From the NCBI RefSeq assembly GCF_023897015.1, contig NZ_JAMHFY010000011.1:62001-126000 (forward strand): DNA of 64,000 nt. Direction: 5' to 3'. Below the pieces are notes generated by a model that was not told the DNA's origin, made no database searches, and worked only from the letters and a program-made list of their open reading frames with translations. Positions 40,128 to 50,295 of this stretch are shown here, piece after piece. Within the stretch, counting starts at the first letter, position 1. Every line of letters starts with the position of its first letter. The translations under genes and the position numbers were made by a program. This DNA comes from Desulfosporosinus nitroreducens (GTDB lineage Bacteria; Bacillota; Desulfitobacteriia; Desulfitobacteriales; Desulfitobacteriaceae).

Positions 40128-41585
40128 ATGGCGAGCGATTTGAGTATACGGATTTTAAGTACAGATGAGGTCGAATTTTTAAAAGAGAAGATTCAGACAC
40201 TACTAACAACAAAGGGATTTAAAATTGAACATCCAGAAGTAATGGAAATATTAAAAAAAGCGGGCGCGGAGGTATCAGAGTCCACTGGCTTAGTTAAGTT
40301 GCCTAAATCCTTATTTGAAGAAGCCTTAAAACAAGTTCCTCGTGAGTTCACTTTAGCAGGTATTGACCCTAAAAATGATTTGAAATTTCCTCATCCTCAA
40401 GGATTGTTCCATACGAGGACGTGCACAGGCGGTATGTTCTATCCTAATGAAAGTGAAAACGGCGAGTATCATCACATTTTGATCGAAGAGGTAGCAGAGT
40501 GGACAAGGTTAGTTAACTCCTTGGAAAATATCAACTTCTGGTCGTTGCCATCAACAAATCCTGTAGGTTTCCCCGCAGAAACTATTGATATTCATACACT
40601 TAATACTGTTTTACGAAATACGACAAAACATGGCTGGGTACAGCCCTATGAAGCAGATAATATTAAATATTTGATAGAAATGGCCGCTGCTGTAGCTGGC
40701 GGAAAAGATAAACTTCGCGAGAGACCCATTATCAGCGCGATTTGCTGCTCTGTTCCTCCCTTGACGTACAAATATATGGATATGAATATCATTTACGAAT
40801 GCTGTAAGGCTGGGGTTCCGCTTCAACCTTGTTCTTTACCGGCGGCCGGTGCCAATGTCCCTATTACTCCGTCAGGAATTGCTCTGATGGCCTGCGCAGA
40901 GGTGTTGGCGATGATTTTAATGGCCCAAATTATTGCGCCTGGAACACCATGTGTGGCTACACCGCTGTTATTTGAAATGGATATGTTGACAACTGTCACT
41001 ACACAGGCTTCTATGTCCACAACTATGGGAAGAATGATGGCCATGCAGCTCTTTAGTGAAGGATATGGTATCCCTTGCCATACTTATGGTACGGGTACGG
41101 ATAGTTGCACTATGGATGGACAAGCTGGATTTGAGCAAGCTTCCATCAGTCACATGGTTGCTTTAGCAGGAGCCTCAGTCCTTGGCGGAGCAGGTCAGAT
41201 CGAAACCGCTAAGGCTATCAATCCTATGCAGTTAATTATCGATAACGACGTTTTCGGATTGGTGAAACAATTGAAGGGCGGTTCTATCGTCGATGAGGAA
41301 GCTGTTGATTGGGCTGATGTCATAGCACTAGCCGAGCATGAAGGATTTGTGGATAAAAAACATACCTTTAAGCATTTCCGCGATGGTTACCGGACAAAAG
41401 TCTTTTCTCGCGATTCAAGAACAGCTTGGGTAGGAAAAGGCAGCAAAGACATTGCCGCGAGGGCTAAAGATCAATATCAATTAATAAAGGGAAATTATCA
41501 GCCCATTAACCTGCCTAAAGAAGTAACTGAAGAATTGGATGCAATCGTAAAACGCGCTGATGAAGAACTTGGCAAGAAAAACTAA
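40128..41585 (+). CDS. MttB-family (non-pyrrolysine) N-methyltransferase
   Basis: 485 residues of the trimethylamine methyltransferase superfamily, TIM-barrel enzymes that transfer a methyl group from a quaternary amine to a corrinoid protein. No in-frame amber codon interrupts it, so it belongs with the non-Pyl branch (MtgB for glycine betaine, MtpB for proline betaine, MtcB for carnitine and similar). Visible segments are TRTCTGGMFYPNE, LPSTNPVGFPAETIDIHT, HGWVQPYEADN and GTGTDSCTMDGQAGFEQA. ATG 40128 follows AAGGAGG. Coupled to a BCCT transporter and followed directly by nicotinate catabolism, it may demethylate N-methylnicotinate (trigonelline); this is inference. Confidence 0.92.
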   Translation: MASDLSIRILSTDEVEFLKEKIQTLLTTKGFKIEHPEVMEILKKAGAEVSESTGLVKLPKSLFEEALKQVPREFTLAGIDPKNDLKFPHPQGLFHTRTCTGGMFYPNESENGEYHHILIEEVAEWTRLVNSLENINFWSLPSTNPVGFPAETIDIHTLNTVLRNTTKHGWVQPYEADNIKYLIEMAAAVAGGKDKLRERPIISAICCSVPPLTYKYMDMNIIYECCKAGVPLQPCSLPAAGANVPITPSGIALMACAEVLAMILMAQIIAPGTPCVATPLLFEMDMLTTVTTQASMSTTMGRMMAMQLFSEGYGIPCHTYGTGTDSCTMDGQAGFEQASISHMVALAGASVLGGAGQIETAKAINPMQLIIDNDVFGLVKQLKGGSIVDEEAVDWADVIALAEHEGFVDKKHTFKHFRDGYRTKVFSRDSRTAWVGKGSKDIAARAKDQYQLIKGNYQPINLPKEVTEELDAIVKRADEELGKKN

Positions 41586-41779: not shown

Positions 41780-42655
41780 ATGCCAGATCTAAGTGAATAT
41801 TACCAACCGCAATCTTTGACCGCTGCTCTGGAGCTATTAGCAAAATCAAACGGTAAATTGATTCCCTTGGCGGGAGGGACCGACATCGTTCCGGCGATGG
41901 GAAAGGGGGAGCTAAAGGCCAACGGGCTAGTTGACTTATCTAAGTTATCGGAAATTCGGCGGATCAGTATGGACGACAGTGAGATAAAGATAGGTAGTTT
42001 GACTACCTTCGCGCAAATTGAGACTTCCCCCCTAATACAAGCGAAGGCGTCGCTATTGGCAGACGCTGCGGCTGCAGTCGGTTCACCTCAAATTCGCACT
42101 ACAGGGACTATTGGTGGAAATATTGCCAATGCTTCGCCGGCAGCTGATACGGTTACAGCTTTGGTAACGTTAGATGCCCAGGCGAGGCTTGATTCCATTA
42201 AGGGATCTCGGCGTGTACTTGTGAGTGAATTATTGTGCGGAGTCGGAAAAACCAATATTCACCCCCAGGAAATAATCACAGAGATAACCTTTAAGATACC
42301 ATCTACAGGTAGTAAAACTGGTTTTATCAAGTTAGGCCGCCGTAAAGCCTTGGCGATAGCGAGAATGAATCTAGCGATTATTGTAACCTTAGACAATGGG
42401 AAAATTAGTTTTGCCCGTGTAGGTTTGGGTGCCGTCGGGCCAAATCCTCGTCGTTATCCGGTTTTGGAGAATAGTTTGGTGGGGCAAAGTCCATCGGAAT
42501 CTTTAATCGACGAATTTGCCATTGAGGCTGAACGTGAAGTAACGCGAGTTTTGGGTTCTCGGCCTTCAGCCATATACAAGTGTGAAGCTGTGAAGGGGAT
42601 CGCTCGGGATTTGTTGAAAAAAATGTTCTCGGATAGTGGACAGGGGGTGGTGTGA
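41780..42655 (+). CDS. ndhF: Nicotinate dehydrogenase, FAD subunit
   Basis: 291 residues of the FAD-binding medium-subunit family of molybdenum hydroxylases. The FAD motifs are PLAGGTDIVPAM (about residues 33-44) and the later TIGGNIANASPAADT. With ndhS, ndhL and ndhM it forms the nicotinate dehydrogenase that hydroxylates nicotinate at C6 and passes electrons to NADP+ in Eubacterium barkeri. The gene order F-S-L-M is that of E. barkeri. The ATG has only a weak site (AAGGATG), and the stop overlaps the start region of ndhS. Confidence 0.88.
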   Translation: MPDLSEYYQPQSLTAALELLAKSNGKLIPLAGGTDIVPAMGKGELKANGLVDLSKLSEIRRISMDDSEIKIGSLTTFAQIETSPLIQAKASLLADAAAAVGSPQIRTTGTIGGNIANASPAADTVTALVTLDAQARLDSIKGSRRVLVSELLCGVGKTNIHPQEIITEITFKIPSTGSKTGFIKLGRRKALAIARMNLAIIVTLDNGKISFARVGLGAVGPNPRRYPVLENSLVGQSPSESLIDEFAIEAEREVTRVLGSRPSAIYKCEAVKGIARDLLKKMFSDSGQGVV

Positions 42656-42656
42656 A

Positions 42657-43151
42657 GTGGCTCAATTTCACTTAGAAATGAAGGTTAACGGCAAAGCAAT
42701 AGCTCTAGACATCGATCCGGGATTGCGGTTACTAGATGTCTTACGTGATATTCTACATTTAACCGGCACCAAAGAAGGATGTGGAGAAGGGGAATGCGGC
42801 GCTTGCTCGGTCATCCTTGATGACGAGTTGGTTGACTCCTGTTTGATTCTTGCTCCTCAAGCTTATGGTAGAGAGGTAATAACGATTGAAGGCCTTGCCC
42901 TAAATGGAGAACTCGATCCTTACCAACAAGCTTTTTTAGAGGTTGGTGCCGTTCAGTGCGGGTACTGTACACCGGGAATGATCTTAGCTGCAAGAGTGTT
43001 GCTGAATCACAAGCCCAAGCCTTCCCAACAGGAGATAGCAAGGGCGATATCGGGCAACCTTTGTCGCTGCACGGGCTATGCAAAGATTGTTCAAGGCGTT
43101 GAAATAGCAGCATCTATTAAGGAAACGAAAGAAGGTGTCTCCCGTGCCTGA
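42657..43151 (+). CDS. ndhS: Nicotinate dehydrogenase, small 2x[2Fe-2S] subunit
   Basis: 164 residues. The N-terminal plant-type cluster uses Cys42, Cys47, Cys50 and Cys62 (GCGEGECGACS), and the C-terminal cluster Cys101, Cys104, Cys136 and Cys138 (CGYCTPGM and GNLCRCTGY). It carries electrons from the molybdenum site to FAD. The GTG at 42657 has GGGGGTGG upstream. The gene starts two bases after the ndhF stop and its end overlaps the ndhL start, as in a tightly built enzyme operon. Confidence 0.92.
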   Translation: MAQFHLEMKVNGKAIALDIDPGLRLLDVLRDILHLTGTKEGCGEGECGACSVILDDELVDSCLILAPQAYGREVITIEGLALNGELDPYQQAFLEVGAVQCGYCTPGMILAARVLLNHKPKPSQQEIARAISGNLCRCTGYAKIVQGVEIAASIKETKEGVSRA

Positions 43152-44418
43152 ATATAGTATTATCGGCAAGTCAGTGCAGCGGGTTGACGGACCGCGAAAA
43201 GTTTCCGGGCAGGCTCAATATGCAGCAGATCTGAATATCCCGGGTGCTCTTTGTTTGAAAGTATTGCGCAGTAAGGTAGCCCATGCCTTAGTGAAAGAGA
43301 TAAATGTAAGTGAAGCCTTAAAGGTTCCTGGGGTGGTACAAATTTTCACCCATGCCGATATCCCTGGGATTAATAGCTACGGAATAATAATCAAAGATCA
43401 GCCGGCTCTAACTAATAAGGTACGCTTCAAAGGGGATGCTATAGCCTTAGTGGCGGCCCAGGATGAAGCAAGCGCGATTATAGCTCTGAGCTTGATTGAG
43501 GTAACCCTTGAGGAACTGCCTCCAATTTACGATGTTAAGGCTGCAATGAGGGAGGATGCTCCGGCAATCCACGATAGGGGTAATAGTATCTCAGCCTATA
43601 GGGTAAAAAAAGGGAATGTTGAATCAGCCCTGAAACAAGCAGAAGTTATAATTACTGGGAGTTATACCACCCAACGTATTGAGCATTGCTATATCGAAAC
43701 AGAAGCTGGAGTAGCCTATATGGACAATGACCTGCTGGTGATTAAGGCAGGTACTCAGAATCCTCATTATGACCGGCGTGATGTTGCCAGGGTCTTGGGC
43801 TTACCCATGAATAAAGTAAGGATTATCCAAACTACGACCGGCGGTGGGTTTGGCGGCAAATTAGATATTTCCGTGCAGTGTTTCCTCGGCTTAGCTGCTT
43901 TAAAGTTAGGACGACCAGTGAAAATTGCATATGATCGACATGAGTCTTTTATTTCTACTGGAAAACGCCATCCATTCTACATTGATTACACCACTGCGGC
44001 CGACAAAGAAGGAAAGTTGTCCGCCGTTAAAGTTAGAATCGTTGGAGATACAGGGGCCTACGCATCCTACGGCCCGGCAACTTTGCTTAGGGCTGCGGTA
44101 CACGCAACGGGGCCTTATGAAGTACCTAATGTGGATATCGAAGCTTCTTGTGTCTATACCAATAATCCCTTTAGTGGAGCGATGCGGGGCTTCGGCACAC
44201 CGCAAATGGCGTTTGCTTGCGAGAGCCAGATGGATTTGGTCGCCCAGGCTGTAAATATTAGTCCTGTGGAAATGCGTCGTCGCAATATTTTTCAAAAAGG
44301 TGCGGTTACTGCTACCCAGCAAAAACTGGATGCTAGTATCGGTATCGGAAAAACTTTAGAGGCTGCTTGGGAAAAAGCTCTCCAGGTAATGCCTGGCCTG
44401 GGGGATGAAAATATATGA
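43144..44418 (+). CDS. ndhL: Nicotinate dehydrogenase, large molybdopterin subunit
   Basis: 424 residues, equivalent to the N-terminal half of a xanthine dehydrogenase molybdenum subunit: the a/b hammerhead (about 15-120), then the first molybdopterin-binding part with GGGFGGK and GAMRGFGTPQ. In almost all relatives this is fused to the next part, but here, as in E. barkeri, it ends and ndhM follows with a four-base overlap. The E. barkeri enzyme carries a labile non-selenocysteine selenium at molybdenum; no selenocysteine codon is needed or seen. GTG 43144 has GAAGG upstream; GTG 43135 is the alternative. Confidence 0.9.
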   Translation: MPEYSIIGKSVQRVDGPRKVSGQAQYAADLNIPGALCLKVLRSKVAHALVKEINVSEALKVPGVVQIFTHADIPGINSYGIIIKDQPALTNKVRFKGDAIALVAAQDEASAIIALSLIEVTLEELPPIYDVKAAMREDAPAIHDRGNSISAYRVKKGNVESALKQAEVIITGSYTTQRIEHCYIETEAGVAYMDNDLLVIKAGTQNPHYDRRDVARVLGLPMNKVRIIQTTTGGGFGGKLDISVQCFLGLAALKLGRPVKIAYDRHESFISTGKRHPFYIDYTTAADKEGKLSAVKVRIVGDTGAYASYGPATLLRAAVHATGPYEVPNVDIEASCVYTNNPFSGAMRGFGTPQMAFACESQMDLVAQAVNISPVEMRRRNIFQKGAVTATQQKLDASIGIGKTLEAAWEKALQVMPGLGDENI

Positions 44419-45413
44419 AAAAACGTGGGTACGGTCTAGCTAATATGTGGTATGGCATTGGAAATACAGCTAACCCCAATCCTTCAGGTGCATTTGTTGA
44501 TTTTTTGGATGATGGGACGGCTATCGTGTTGACCGGCTGCGCTGACATTGGGCAGGGTTCAAATACTGTCCTGGCTCAGATTGCGGCTGAGACCTTAGGT
44601 ATTTGTATAGAAGATGTCGTCATCATATCAGCTGATACTGAAGTAACGCCAGATGCGGGTGCTTCATCGGCATCTAGACAAACGTATGTTTCGGGCAATG
44701 CAGTTCGCTTGGCTGCCGAAAAGGTTCGGGATCAGGTTATTGCTATAGCAGCCGAAATATTAAATTTACCGACAGAAACGGTAAACCTCTATCAAGGGGA
44801 GATATGGAATAGCAACGAGTCTAGTGGCGTGAGTATAAAAGATATTATTATCAAGTGCCGAAGCAAAGGTATCTTAACTCTAGGACATGGCTCATATAAT
44901 CCGGTTACCACTATGCTGGATCCGGAAACCGGAAAGGGTATCCCCTATGCGACCTATGCTTTTGCCACTCAGGTAGCTGAAGTAGAAGTAGATACGGAAA
45001 CAGGTATAGTAGAAGTCAAACAAATTGTAGCTGCCCATGATGTTGGTACGGCCATCAACCCACAAAATGTGGAAGGACAGATTGAGGGAGGCTGTGCTAT
45101 GGGGATAGGTTATGCTTTGCTTGAAGAAGTAATTCTCAAGGATGGCGAAATACAAAATCCTGGCATGTCAACCTATCTGATTCCTACATCTTTAGATGTT
45201 CCGGAAATTCATACCATCATCATCGAAGAATCTGAAATTAGCGGACCTTACGGAGCAAAAGGGGTGGGTGAACCAGCCTTGGTGCCGACGGCTGCGGCTA
45301 TTGCTAATGCTGTTGCCGACGCTTTGGGAATTCGCATTTATGATTTGCCACTAACCCCTGAAAGAGTCGTGGCAGCACTAAAATCGGCGCAGGAAGATAG
45401 TAAGAAAGTATAA
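44415..45413 (+). CDS. ndhM: Nicotinate dehydrogenase, medium molybdopterin subunit
   Basis: 332 residues matching the C-terminal half of the molybdopterin subunit. It has GCADIGQGSNTVLAQIAAET, ASSASRQTYVSGNA, and near the end the GPYGAKGVGEPALVPTAAAI loop containing the catalytic Glu of the family. The ATGA overlap with ndhL implies coupled translation and one-to-one assembly. The split large subunit is the hallmark of nicotinate dehydrogenase and strongly supports the substrate assignment. Confidence 0.92.
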   Translation: MKKRGYGLANMWYGIGNTANPNPSGAFVDFLDDGTAIVLTGCADIGQGSNTVLAQIAAETLGICIEDVVIISADTEVTPDAGASSASRQTYVSGNAVRLAAEKVRDQVIAIAAEILNLPTETVNLYQGEIWNSNESSGVSIKDIIIKCRSKGILTLGHGSYNPVTTMLDPETGKGIPYATYAFATQVAEVEVDTETGIVEVKQIVAAHDVGTAINPQNVEGQIEGGCAMGIGYALLEEVILKDGEIQNPGMSTYLIPTSLDVPEIHTIIIEESEISGPYGAKGVGEPALVPTAAAIANAVADALGIRIYDLPLTPERVVAALKSAQEDSKKV

Positions 45414-45498
45414 AGCGAAGGAGACTTTCTGGGGAAAAGGCAGAAAGGATAACTGACGCTGTGGTGTCATTAACTAGATGCGTAGAGGAGGGGACTTT

Positions 45499-46659
45499 AT
45501 GGGGATTATAGCACTAGTAAACATTGGAATGATTGTAACTGGGGATATTAAACAACCGCTCAGTAAGGCAACTACGATGGTTGTTCAAGATGGAAAAATT
45601 GCCAAAATCGGTAACGCTGATATTTTGGAAGGTTTTAAGGTGGAAAAGACGATTGATGTAGCAGGGATGACCGTTACCCCGGGCTTAATCGACTCTCATG
45701 TCCATCCGGTGATTGGAGATTATACCCCTCGCCAAAAAACCCAAGATTATCTGGATGGTTCCGTACATGGTGGAGTGACAACATTTATCTCCGCAGGTGA
45801 ACCTCACTTTCCTGGACGTCCAAAAGATCCCGCTGGAACCAAGGCCTTAGCGATACTGGTTCATAAGTCCTTCAAAAACTTACGTTCATCCGGTTTAAAA
45901 GTTCATGGTGGGGCGGTAATTCTGGAAAAGGGACTTGTGGAAGCCGATTTCGCTGAGATGGCCAAGGAAGGGGTTTGGCTCGTAGGGGAAGTAGGCTTGG
46001 GAAGTGTAAAGAAACCGGAAGATGCTGTACCAATGGTTAATTGGGCCAAAAAATATGGTATGAAAATAGCGATGCATACTGGTGGGACTTCAATTCCAGG
46101 AAGCTCAACTGTTACAGCGGATGATGTCATTGCGGTCCAGCCTACGGTAGTATCCCATGTTAATGGTGGTCCTACGGCTATTGCTCCTGCCGAAGTCGAA
46201 AAGTTGATTAACACTACTGATTTGACGCTCGAGATTGTACAATGTGGCAATCCGAAGATTGCTGCTTTAACCGTCAGTAAATTGGCAGAGAAAGATGCTT
46301 TAGATAGAGTCATCTTCGGAAATGATTCTCCGTCCGGAACGGGTATTATTCCGTTGGGAATCTTACGGACGATAAGCTTTATAGCTTCTATAACGAATGT
46401 TTCTGCTGAGAAAGTTATCGCCATGGCAACAGGCAATACTGCTCGGGTCTTTGGTTTGGAGACGGGTCTTATCGCTGAAGGTAAAGAAGCCGACTTGGTG
46501 ATAATGGATGCTCCCATGGGTTCAATAGGGAGCAACGCCTTAGAAGCGTTAGAGGCGGGTGATTTACCAGCAGTTGCTCTTGTAATGGTTGATGGAGTTA
46601 TCAAAGTTACCAAGAGTCGTAACACTCCCCCTTCCGAACGTAATTATTCTGTAAAGTAA
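45499..46659 (+). CDS. ena: Enamidase (tetrahydro-6-oxonicotinate hydrolase)
   Basis: 386 residues of the amidohydrolase superfamily. The metal motif DSHVHP (His67 and His69) is followed by more ligands in AMHTGG and SHVNGG and by FGNDSPSGTG. Enamidase is a bifunctional Fe-Zn enzyme that opens 1,4,5,6-tetrahydro-6-oxonicotinate and removes ammonia to give (S)-2-formylglutarate. ATG 45499 has GAGGAGGGG upstream; the longer frame from 45478 does not. Position between ndhM and hnr agrees with the pathway. Confidence 0.92.
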   Translation: MGIIALVNIGMIVTGDIKQPLSKATTMVVQDGKIAKIGNADILEGFKVEKTIDVAGMTVTPGLIDSHVHPVIGDYTPRQKTQDYLDGSVHGGVTTFISAGEPHFPGRPKDPAGTKALAILVHKSFKNLRSSGLKVHGGAVILEKGLVEADFAEMAKEGVWLVGEVGLGSVKKPEDAVPMVNWAKKYGMKIAMHTGGTSIPGSSTVTADDVIAVQPTVVSHVNGGPTAIAPAEVEKLINTTDLTLEIVQCGNPKIAALTVSKLAEKDALDRVIFGNDSPSGTGIIPLGILRTISFIASITNVSAEKVIAMATGNTARVFGLETGLIAEGKEADLVIMDAPMGSIGSNALEALEAGDLPAVALVMVDGVIKVTKSRNTPPSERNYSVK

Positions 46660-46695: not shown

Positions 46696-48183
46696 ATGGC
46701 AGTTGTGATTGATAGTGAGATATGTAAGGGATGTGGTATCTGTAGTAAGGAATGTCCTAACAAGGCTATCCTTATTCAGGATAAAAAGGCTTTTATTCAA
46801 GATAGTTGTACTGGCTGCGGAATCTGTACTAGAGTATGCCCTTTCAACGCGGCTGCTGAGATCAGTGAGATTAAAGAAGGGGCAGTAAAATGTACCTCTT
46901 GTCCTGTACAATGCGAGGTTTTAGAAGGGTACACGGGAGCTTGCCAACGCTATAGAAATGATAGAGGTCAGCTTATCCGTAATCGGAAACTAGTGACGGA
47001 TGTTATTCCAGGAGGCCCACTGATTACTGCAGTTGGGGCTGGAACTGCCTATCCATGCTGTCGACCAGCACCGCATATTGTTCAGGATACTATTGATGGT
47101 GTAGAGATGGTTACTGTCGTGACCGAAGCGCCTTTAAGTTACAGTGGAATTAAGGTTAAGATCGATACTAATTTGTTTGTAGGTGAAGAAGGCACTAAGG
47201 TTAAGCGTAATGGCAAAGTTGTTGGGATGGTTGATACTGAAGAGTACGGTTCTAAAATGCTCTCAATTGGCGGAGCAAATCTTCTTACAGGTAAAGATGG
47301 ATTTATTGTTGCTCGAACCATTGTGGAAATCGCCAATGGAGAACGAGTGACGTTGAAAGTTGAGAATAACACCCTGGAACTTCAAGTTGGTTGTCCACCA
47401 ATTATCAACGGGGTAGAAGATACAAAGATGCGTGTTGGTTGTGGAAGTGCAACGATTGGGATGTTTGCTGCGAAGCTCAAAGAAGTTGTCGATGAAGCGA
47501 TCATTCTTGATCACCATGTGGTTGGCTTGCTCTCAGAGCATATGGCTGGAGAATCAGTCGGTATGAGCTGGAGCGGAATCATTCCCAATGCCAGACGGAG
47601 TACGCGGGGACGTTACTTCGGGGAACATGGCCAGGGCTGGGGTGGAACTAATATAGAAAATCCAAAAGATGCGATTAAGTCGGTCGATATGTCCAGGGCT
47701 AAGCCAGGTATGAAAGTCCTTGTAACCGAGACCACTGGAAGAATGGCAGCCCTATTCGAGGTTCAAATAGATGGTTCCGTGCTTGAAGTATCCATGACCG
47801 ATGAGGTTAAGAGTGGAGTTGATGCTATCCGCGATACGTGTGAAAATGCACGAGTATCCGCTCTCTATGTTGGAGGAACAGGTGGAAGTGCACGTGCTGG
47901 AGTGGCGGTAAATCCGCTTAAAGTAACACAGGCTGTCCATAACCGAGAGGCATTATTAACCATCGGCGGTGCTGAAGTCTTTGTGCTCCCTGGTGGGGGA
48001 ATTAACTTCATGGTCGATGTTGAAAAAGTAGTTTCCAAAGCTTTTACTTGGGTTCCCACACCGGCAACAGTAGCTCCGGTAGAATATACGATGTCCTTAG
48101 AAAAGTATAAGGAAATTGGTGGCCATATCCAGGCGATCAAGAAGCTGAGTGAGATCGTGTCTCAAGAGGACTCCTCCAGCTAA
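46696..48183 (+). CDS. hnr: 6-Hydroxynicotinate reductase
   Basis: 495 residues. The N-terminus is a two-cluster ferredoxin (Cys10, 13, 16, 20 and Cys38, 41, 44, 48), followed by Cys66, Cys69, Cys73 and Cys83, which could ligate a further [2Fe-2S] cluster. The long remainder is the flavin-bearing part peculiar to this enzyme. The E. barkeri enzyme contains one [2Fe-2S], two [4Fe-4S] and covalently bound flavin and reduces 6-hydroxynicotinate to tetrahydro-6-oxonicotinate with reduced ferredoxin. ATG 46696 follows AGGGAGG. A G+C-rich insertion separates it from the rest of the operon. Confidence 0.9.
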   Translation: MAVVIDSEICKGCGICSKECPNKAILIQDKKAFIQDSCTGCGICTRVCPFNAAAEISEIKEGAVKCTSCPVQCEVLEGYTGACQRYRNDRGQLIRNRKLVTDVIPGGPLITAVGAGTAYPCCRPAPHIVQDTIDGVEMVTVVTEAPLSYSGIKVKIDTNLFVGEEGTKVKRNGKVVGMVDTEEYGSKMLSIGGANLLTGKDGFIVARTIVEIANGERVTLKVENNTLELQVGCPPIINGVEDTKMRVGCGSATIGMFAAKLKEVVDEAIILDHHVVGLLSEHMAGESVGMSWSGIIPNARRSTRGRYFGEHGQGWGGTNIENPKDAIKSVDMSRAKPGMKVLVTETTGRMAALFEVQIDGSVLEVSMTDEVKSGVDAIRDTCENARVSALYVGGTGGSARAGVAVNPLKVTQAVHNREALLTIGGAEVFVLPGGGINFMVDVEKVVSKAFTWVPTPATVAPVEYTMSLEKYKEIGGHIQAIKKLSEIVSQEDSSS

Positions 48184-48840
48184 AGCCTCTACTCTGAAAA
48201 AAGCAGACTAGACAGGGGGACGGTTCTGTCGGGCTCTGGGGCGGAGCGCTTTTCTACACGCGTCTGCGAGTTCCGCCGCTGGCTCGCTGGACGGTTCGCG
48301 AGCGCGTCCGAACCTCTGGGTATTTCTGCATGTGAACCTGCGGCGCGCTACGGGGACGCGAACCGTCGGCGCTCGCCTTAGCGCGGCTTCACTGACGCAT
48401 CCGCTTAGCAGAAAAGCGCTCCTTCAGCCAGTTTATTGAGTGAGTAAGCAGAACTTTGGGGGTGCTCTGGTTAGGTTTCGCGGAATCTTGCACGTGTTAG
48501 CATTTTTCATCATCTGCTGGTGCTACGGCAGCGGCATGGAGGGCTACTCTGAAAAAAAGCCCAGTCAGACCCCAAACGGCAGTTTCGCCTACAGGAGTGA
48601 ACGAATCTCATGGAGAGGCGGTAAGGCCCACAAAGCTTGGGCGGGGAAGCGCAGCCACGGGTTCACTCCAGGTATTACCCGGAGGTTTGGCGAAGCTCCC
48701 GCGCAAGCGCGTGGGCGAGCCTCGGAATGTTGAGTGAACGGATGTGGGTGAAACTGCCCGACCCAAGCGACCCGTTTTCATCCTCTGCTGGTGCTGAGGC
48801 AGCGGCATGGGGGGCTATCCCCGAAGGAACTTCGTGGTGA
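48184..48840. mobile_element. G+C-rich, structured, non-coding insertion inside the operon
   Basis: About 650 bases of much higher G+C than the neighbours. Part one opens with GGGGGACGGTTC and is bounded by GGAGCGCTTTTCT (48243-48255) and its exact complement (48410-48422), with inner self-complementary blocks. Part two holds two direct copies of a roughly 47-base segment (48503-48549 and 48775-48822) containing TCTGCTGGTGCT, and the string CTACTCTGAAAAAA recurs at 48189 and 48544. Open frames here lack ribosome-binding sites. It looks like a REP-like or miniature mobile element with no transposase of its own. Confidence 0.6.
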
Positions 48841-48857
48841 AGGAGGTGTCTTCCCAA

Positions 48858-49730
48858 ATGATTAATGTCTTAGCCGAAGATCGAGTCTTCCTGAATTATG
48901 GACCGGTTCAAATGATGTTAATGGCCCAGGCACATGGACGGGTAATCACAAGGCAACTGCAAGAGGCAGCCGAGTATGTGATCAAGATTCTGTCAGAATT
49001 GGCCGAAGTTCAAAAACAAGCAAAAGATGTTTTAACATTGAATGAAGCGGATCTTAATGTCTATCCCTTGCCTTTACGGTTGATGGTCGAGGCTGTATTG
49101 GAAACCGGAGATCGGACCTTAACGCCCATGGCAGCGGTAGCGGGTACTTTTGCGGACTTAGCAGGTGACTGGTTGGTGGAAAAAGGTGCCTCAAAGGTCA
49201 TGATTAATAACGGCGGGGATATTGCGCTAAGATTGCAAGGAAACGAAAAGACGAAGCTGGGGCTGACGCCGAGTATTGAAGCTTCAGGGTATAGCCATAT
49301 TCTTAACCTTACAGCTGAAGCTGGAATTGGGGGAGTCGCAACCAGTGGCTTGGGAGGGCGCAGCTTTACAAAGGGCATCGCCAGTGCTGTGACGGTTGTT
49401 GCAAAGACTGCTCGAGTCGCCGATGCCTGTGCGACGCTGATAGCTAATCATTGTTTTACTGAAGATCCGGGCATTTCAAGATTGCCAGCTGAATTATTGG
49501 ATCCAAATACGGATATACCCGGTCATCTGGTGACAGTTAGGATAGGGGATTTAAGCCCTCAAACTAAGGTGAAAGCTTTGGAAAATGGCTTGCGAAAGGC
49601 TATAGAACTTAAGTCTCAAGGCCGTATTCACGGTGCCGTACTCTTTCTTGATGACTTGGTGATGATGATACCTGATAACTTGTGTCAAGCAGCAAAACTT
49701 GAAGGAGGAAATCAAGATGGAAATTCGTAA
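48858..49730 (+). CDS. UPF0280 family protein, ApbE-related
   Basis: 290 residues of the UPF0280 family, related in fold to ApbE, the enzyme that attaches FMN covalently to Thr/Ser. Visible segments are INNGGDIALRL and a Gly-rich GIGGVATSGLGGRSFTKGIA, like the flavin-binding region of ApbE. Its place directly after hnr, whose E. barkeri homologue has covalent flavin, makes a role in Hnr flavinylation an attractive inference. ATG 48858 is preceded by AGGAGGTG, which lies right at the end of the G+C-rich insertion. Confidence 0.8.
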   Translation: MINVLAEDRVFLNYGPVQMMLMAQAHGRVITRQLQEAAEYVIKILSELAEVQKQAKDVLTLNEADLNVYPLPLRLMVEAVLETGDRTLTPMAAVAGTFADLAGDWLVEKGASKVMINNGGDIALRLQGNEKTKLGLTPSIEASGYSHILNLTAEAGIGGVATSGLGGRSFTKGIASAVTVVAKTARVADACATLIANHCFTEDPGISRLPAELLDPNTDIPGHLVTVRIGDLSPQTKVKALENGLRKAIELKSQGRIHGAVLFLDDLVMMIPDNLCQAAKLEGGNQDGNS

Positions 49731-50295
49731 AATTGTAACGGTCGTTGAAGAAACTCATAAAGATGGCGAAAAGACTGTTGTAAACCCCACACGAAAGGCG
49801 GCTGCTATGGCCGTTATCAAAAATCCATTTGCAGGACAGTACGTGGAAGATTTAACAGAGCTGATGGAAATCGGTGAACAATTGGGTTCGATGCTCGCTG
49901 AACGGGCAGTAAAAGCACTGGGAATTGCCAAAGAAGATGTTGAGAGCTACGGCAAGGGAGCAATTATTGGAGAAAAGGGTGAACTTGAACACGCCGCTGC
50001 TATTTTACATCCTCGTTTAGGCAAACCTTTTCGGGATGAGGTTGGAGGAGGTAAAGCAATTATCCCTTCTGCTAAGAAACTTGGCGGAATCGGAACAGGC
50101 TTAGATGTACCTGTTCATTACAAAGATGCAGCTTTCGTACGTACACACTACGATGCTATGGAAGTGAGAATTGCGGATGCTCCTAGAGCGGATGAGTTGG
50201 TTGTTGCGCTAGTTGTTACGGATGCAGGGCGTCCGCATCCTCGAATCGGTGGTTTACAAAAAAGCGAAGTTAAAGGTGAAGACGGACTTAGATAA
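49717..50295 (+). CDS. AA_synth/DUF1185 family protein
   Basis: 192 residues of the so-called amino acid synthesis family (DUF1185). It begins MEIRKIVTVVEETHKDGEK, has GKGAIIGEKGELEHAAAILH in the middle and ends with a segment DAGRPHPRIGG. Members occur beside amidohydrolase and cyclic-amide catabolic genes. Its reaction here is unknown; formylglutarate or tetrahydro-oxonicotinate handling is possible. ATG 49717 follows AAGGAGG and overlaps the end of the UPF0280 gene, so the two are co-expressed. Confidence 0.78.
   Translation: MEIRKIVTVVEETHKDGEKTVVNPTRKAAAMAVIKNPFAGQYVEDLTELMEIGEQLGSMLAERAVKALGIAKEDVESYGKGAIIGEKGELEHAAAILHPRLGKPFRDEVGGGKAIIPSAKKLGGIGTGLDVPVHYKDAAFVRTHYDAMEVRIADAPRADELVVALVVTDAGRPHPRIGGLQKSEVKGEDGLR

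Follow-up and report, generated by a model that had tools for sequence, protein, structure and literature searches.

A UPF0280 protein paired with 6-hydroxynicotinate reductase is a probable maturation factor and a candidate flavin transferase

The nicotinate gene cluster and its UPF0280 gene

The DNA analyzed here (the window) is a stretch of 64,000 nucleotides from Desulfosporosinus nitroreducens. It contains a gene cluster whose content is that of the nicotinate fermentation set. An MttB-like gene of the trimethylamine methyltransferase family (40128-41585), scoring below the curated cut-off of its family, marks the upstream edge. On the forward strand, as for all window genes given below with coordinates, the region 41780..45413 encodes an FAD subunit, a 2x[2Fe-2S] subunit and a split molybdopterin subunit, which we took to be nicotinate dehydrogenase-like from their sequence and from knowledge of the pathway. 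The molybdopterin subunit (43135-45413) is made of two overlapping ORFs, a split like that of ndhL/ndhM in E. barkeri. An amidohydrolase gene (45478..46659, assigned by profile and pathway knowledge), presumably the enamidase, is followed by hnr (46696..48183), which encodes a 6-hydroxynicotinate reductase (Hnr) of 495 aa by profile and sequence. Furthermore, the cluster holds 2-(hydroxymethyl)glutarate dehydrogenase-like and serine-dehydratase-like genes, an aconitase-like pair, and mutase, isomerase and lyase genes.

The N-terminus of Hnr forms a 2x[4Fe-4S] domain with the cysteines C10/13/16/20 and C38/41/44/48, and four more cysteines (C66/69/73/83) are invariant. Compared with Hnr of Eubacterium barkeri, the window protein thus has cysteine sets for two [4Fe-4S] clusters and one further cluster, which presumably fits the cofactors reported for that enzyme; the pathway gene sets we also take to be alike. 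A PDB search with the whole Hnr model returned, among the matches listed, hits to the ferredoxin part only, leaving a domain of about 400 aa unmatched. The E. barkeri enzyme reportedly carries a covalent flavin, and we know of no protein that has been named as its installer.

It had been predicted from the DNA that a UPF0280 gene adjoins hnr. Indeed, hnr directly precedes this gene, though here with 674 bp between them. The spacer (48184..48857, forward strand) carries a 43-nt direct repeat (48504 and 48775) and inverted repeats. Most relatives have overlapping genes or a gap of at most 30 bp; locus L002 carries a spacer of comparable length (721 bp), and most relatives have none. Because of this rarity, the spacer is probably an insertion into a normally overlapping gene pair. 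An AA_synth (PF06684) family gene (49714..50295) follows UPF0280, as it does in most clusters, and is present in two copies in several Pseudomonadota. To our knowledge, no role in nicotinate degradation has been assigned to it.

The UPF0280 gene (48858..49730) encodes 290 aa and was assigned to the Hnr-linked clade of UPF0280/COG2122 by ORF, profile, structure and tree. The longest frame opens at 48807, while the ATG at 48858 agrees with the start in relatives and is preceded by AAGGAGGTG (48840..48848, forward strand), a likely ribosome-binding site. Reading the N-terminus (MINVLAEDRVFLNYG) by eye revealed no signal peptide. The NCBIfam PRK04334 models for UPF0280/COG2122 match the product with an E value of 4e-69, with a score of 233 bits against the curated cut-off of 290 bits of the best model. 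The family signatures PMAAVAG, NGGD, TSG and ADAxAT are all present, the nearest PDB sequence is 2o34, and plasmid-borne homologues are annotated as "UPF0280 family protein" by NCBI.

Co-occurrence of UPF0280 with Hnr and with DUF39

A genome scan with Hnr yielded 36 loci from Bacillota and Desulfobacterota, in 33 of which UPF0280 lies directly downstream of hnr. The L012 and L017 genomes encode an Hnr-type UPF0280 elsewhere and not beside hnr; in the L013 genome, whose Hnr sits at a contig end, no UPF0280 copy was found. A second UPF0280 copy in the D. nitroreducens genome lies directly after DUF39 and NIL-ferredoxin genes.

Co-occurrence across genomes, named as a check in the original prediction, was analyzed in two phylum samples and on plasmids, and the pairing held in each. 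Among 398 genomes of the window's phylum we detected Hnr in 15, DUF39 in 133 and UPF0280 in 148. UPF0280 is present in 15/15 genomes with Hnr and in all 142 with Hnr or DUF39. When DUF39-free genomes were considered separately, UPF0280 was found in 9/9 that encode Hnr and in 6/256 that do not (Fisher 3e-13, a value that ignores shared ancestry). Two of these six UPF0280-only genomes have the gene at a contig end beside a NIL-ferredoxin gene or a DUF39 remnant, and three carry fragments. The sixth, G346, has an intact UPF0280 that stands alone (L119:7671-8405). This copy belongs to the homocysteine-linked clade and lies beside a molybdo-oxidoreductase gene, and the genome gave neither a DUF39 nor an Hnr match. 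In the second sample, 128 genomes of another phylum, the 24 genomes with a full or split full-length Hnr are the same 24 that contain a high-scoring UPF0280. The link between DUF39 and UPF0280 is looser there, since DUF39 was found in two genomes (G406 and G443) that gave no match to UPF0280.

On Pseudomonadota plasmids, Hnr and UPF0280 were each found in 26 records, 25 of them common to both. In the remaining Hnr record, from Rhizobium gallicum, a profile reading of the DNA recovered UPF0280 beside hnr, and the two genes adjoin in all 14 plasmid Hnr loci examined. Plasmid Hnrs (L232, L234, L235-L245) lack the N-terminal 2x[4Fe-4S] domain and keep C66/69/73/83. They are still paired with UPF0280, and hence the partnership does not require the ferredoxin portion. 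In some of the plasmid loci, hnr has a ferredoxin-NADP reductase gene nearby. The Hydrogenophaga plasmid pBPS33 (L231) carries UPF0280 at four places (tblastn) in tandem units of about 10.8 kb with IS1071, and no Hnr match was obtained on that plasmid. Pairing of the two genes, with overlap, was seen in three phyla, and their co-occurrence is almost without exception. From the linkage as a whole we conclude that UPF0280 is very likely a dedicated maturation factor or partner of Hnr.

Hnr-linked and homocysteine-linked UPF0280 proteins are separated in the tree by a 100/100 branch. The sole apparent misfit, L038, is the homocysteine copy of this genome, mislabelled by score. The clades also differ at single positions, with Arg168, Asn117 and Thr89 in the Hnr type versus Pro or His, Glu and Gly in the homocysteine type. 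Members of the second clade (DvMF_0044, MA1715) and the solved DVU1097 (2o34) share family, fold and the NGGD/TSG/ADAxAT signatures with the window protein. Like UPF0280 at the hnr locus, they have a reductive enzyme as their known partner, in their case one with a ferredoxin-like companion; this partner is DUF39, whereas that of the window clade is Hnr. Flavin transfer would not be the first biochemical role for the family, as originally suggested, because genetic evidence already shows that COG2122 is needed together with DUF39 for homocysteine synthesis (PMC5764234), and it has been tied to sulfide assimilation in M. acetivorans (cited in PMC12068725).

UPF0280 might instead traffic sulfur or persulfide, as proposed for MA1715, and thereby aid Hnr and DUF39 alike in forming Fe-S clusters or cysteine persulfides. 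A sulfur-transfer role has been suggested for COG2122 (PMC5764234; PMC12068725), and both partners work with Fe-S proteins. In Hnr-type UPF0280, however, none of the invariant or nearly invariant residues is a cysteine, and the ApbE fold with its triad Ser and Asp is kept. Moreover, many Fe-S enzymes do without a UPF0280-type partner, and we regard a sulfur-trafficking role as rather unlikely.

Fold and active site compared with ApbE

UPF0280 had been proposed to have a fold related to that of the flavin transferase ApbE and a Gly-rich loop like the one in ApbE, and both features were recovered. The AlphaFold model is confident (pLDDT 94.5) and superimposes on 2o34 with Z 21.6 over 216 residues and on Ftp with Z 17.2 over 218 residues (3.3 A), while the best unrelated fold reaches Z 8.2. 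Across the FAD:protein FMN transferases ApbE, Ftp and FmnB, the common T-fold gives Z 15-17 with 13-19% identity over the structural match. The Pfam ApbE match is sub-threshold for the window protein (E 9e-4) and above threshold for some relatives. The loop is NNGGD (117-121), with N118 to D121 invariant.

Uricase and GTP cyclohydrolase also resemble the model, with Z 7-8. Uricase and other relatives with this T-fold have heterocyclic substrates, and the UPF0280 gene lies inside a nicotinate cluster, so that the protein could itself catalyze a step of nicotinate breakdown instead of serving as a maturation factor. We consider this improbable. The other family partner, DUF39, makes homocysteine, a reaction that involves no heterocycle; the gene is separate from hnr in two of the genomes described above; and we know of no missing step in the characterized pathway that UPF0280 would fill.

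The active site was mapped by profile alignment to V. cholerae ApbE, for which we worked out a numbering offset of 16. Catalytic residues of that enzyme are Ser241, His257 and Asp285 (PMC12052999). S163 of the TSG signature matches Ser241 and D189 of ADAxAT matches Asp285, both being 94-100% conserved, and T193 (Thr or Ser) takes the place of the Thr in ApbE ADxxAT. In contrast to these shared residues, no conserved counterpart of the general base His257 was found in UPF0280; Hnr-type proteins have Arg at position 168, where homocysteine-type proteins have Pro or His. It has also been noted that the homology of COG2122 to ApbE seemingly stops short of the flavin-binding region of ApbE (PMC5764234).

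A canonical ApbE might flavinylate Hnr, with UPF0280 being irrelevant to the flavin. Cytosolic ApbEs exist (PMC12052999), and a full-length ApbE is encoded in 21 of 38 Hnr genomes. In the other 17, five of them listed with a completeness of at least 95%, no ApbE other than UPF0280 was found, and a canonical ApbE can thus not be the general installer. ApbE targets carry the strict motif D-x-x-[S/T]-G-A-[S/T] (PMC12052999), which is absent from Hnr. Taken together, this makes flavinylation by a canonical ApbE highly improbable.

A candidate flavin acceptor and the role of UPF0280

The original prediction had seen no clear ApbE target motif in Hnr. This stands for the strict motif, whereas a relaxed form, [DE]xx[ST]xxT, is conserved. 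Hnr residues 137-143 (EMVTVVT, encoded at 47104..47124 on the forward strand) fit it in 81 of 82 sequences, and Thr143 and Glu144 are present in 82/82. Thr143 is, in our reading, the best candidate flavin acceptor. Thr253 in the GCGSAT loop, considered as another acceptor, is less conserved (68 Thr and 11 Ser among 82 Hnrs). DUF39 contains DVVTT[G/A]T or DIVTTGT in 61/61 intact sequences. A conserved Cys follows five residues later and, judged by sequence context, is probably the counterpart of the essential Cys54 in MA1821. Each family has a single conserved [DE]xx[ST]xx[ST], with a chance of 0.013 for Hnr and 0.024 for DUF39 by column shuffling, values to be read with the relaxation (Glu allowed, GA dropped) having been chosen after the data were seen. 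Homology between Hnr and DUF39 was also considered: the best hhalign match pairs VDVVTVVTEAPLSYSG with VDVVTTGTFGPMCSSG, a score reached by 56/150 column shuffles, and no intermediates were found in 42 genomes searched. With homology unsupported, the likeness of the motifs would be convergent or due to chance, unless structure shows otherwise.

Since UPF0280 is ApbE-like in shape and adjoins hnr in almost every Hnr genome, it probably installs the Hnr flavin. The fold, the kept Ser and Asp, the reported covalent flavin of Hnr and the many Hnr genomes without ApbE make flavin transfer the most economical chemistry. The lack of a conserved catalytic His, the sub-threshold Pfam match and the absence of a strict motif from Hnr count against it, as does the limited reach of the homology between COG2122 and ApbE. 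We give about even chances to the full reading, in which UPF0280 works in the cytosol as a maturation factor dedicated to Hnr and acts, most likely, as an ApbE-like FMN transferase, and the same to covalent transfer onto Hnr as such. Together with FAD and a metal, UPF0280 would place FMN onto a hydroxyl group of Hnr, Thr143 being favored. The covalent flavin may then take single electrons from the Fe-S clusters and deliver them to the two-electron reduction of 6-hydroxynicotinate.

The linkage and fold evidence would fit equally well if UPF0280 were a chaperone, a subunit or a non-covalent carrier through which Hnr gains or keeps its flavin, with the covalent bond forming autocatalytically. 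Autocatalytic attachment occurs in many 8-alpha-linked flavoproteins, and the conserved His282, His477 and Cys249 of Hnr offer alternative attachment sites. The lack of a conserved ApbE general-base His in UPF0280 points the same way, whereas a mere carrier would have no need of the triad Ser and Asp or of T193. We consider a carrier role unlikely.

An extension of flavin transfer to DUF39 is speculative. It is possible, if doubtful, that UPF0280 proteins form a cytosolic flavin transferase family with two types of client, Hnr and DUF39. Both would receive the flavin on the final Thr of their similar D/E-x-x-T-x-x-T motifs. DUF39 would then be an unrecognized covalent flavoprotein, in which the flavin links the NIL/ferredoxin partner to thioaldehyde reduction. 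Such a flavin would account for the need of anaerobes and methanogens for COG2122 in methionine synthesis. The COG2122 family is widespread, and its role has so far been genetic and not chemical. Should UPF0280 be a flavin transferase, the ApbE fold would have a cytosolic branch directed at targets of its own, and a hidden flavin would be suggested in the alternative homocysteine pathway found in anaerobes and methanogens.
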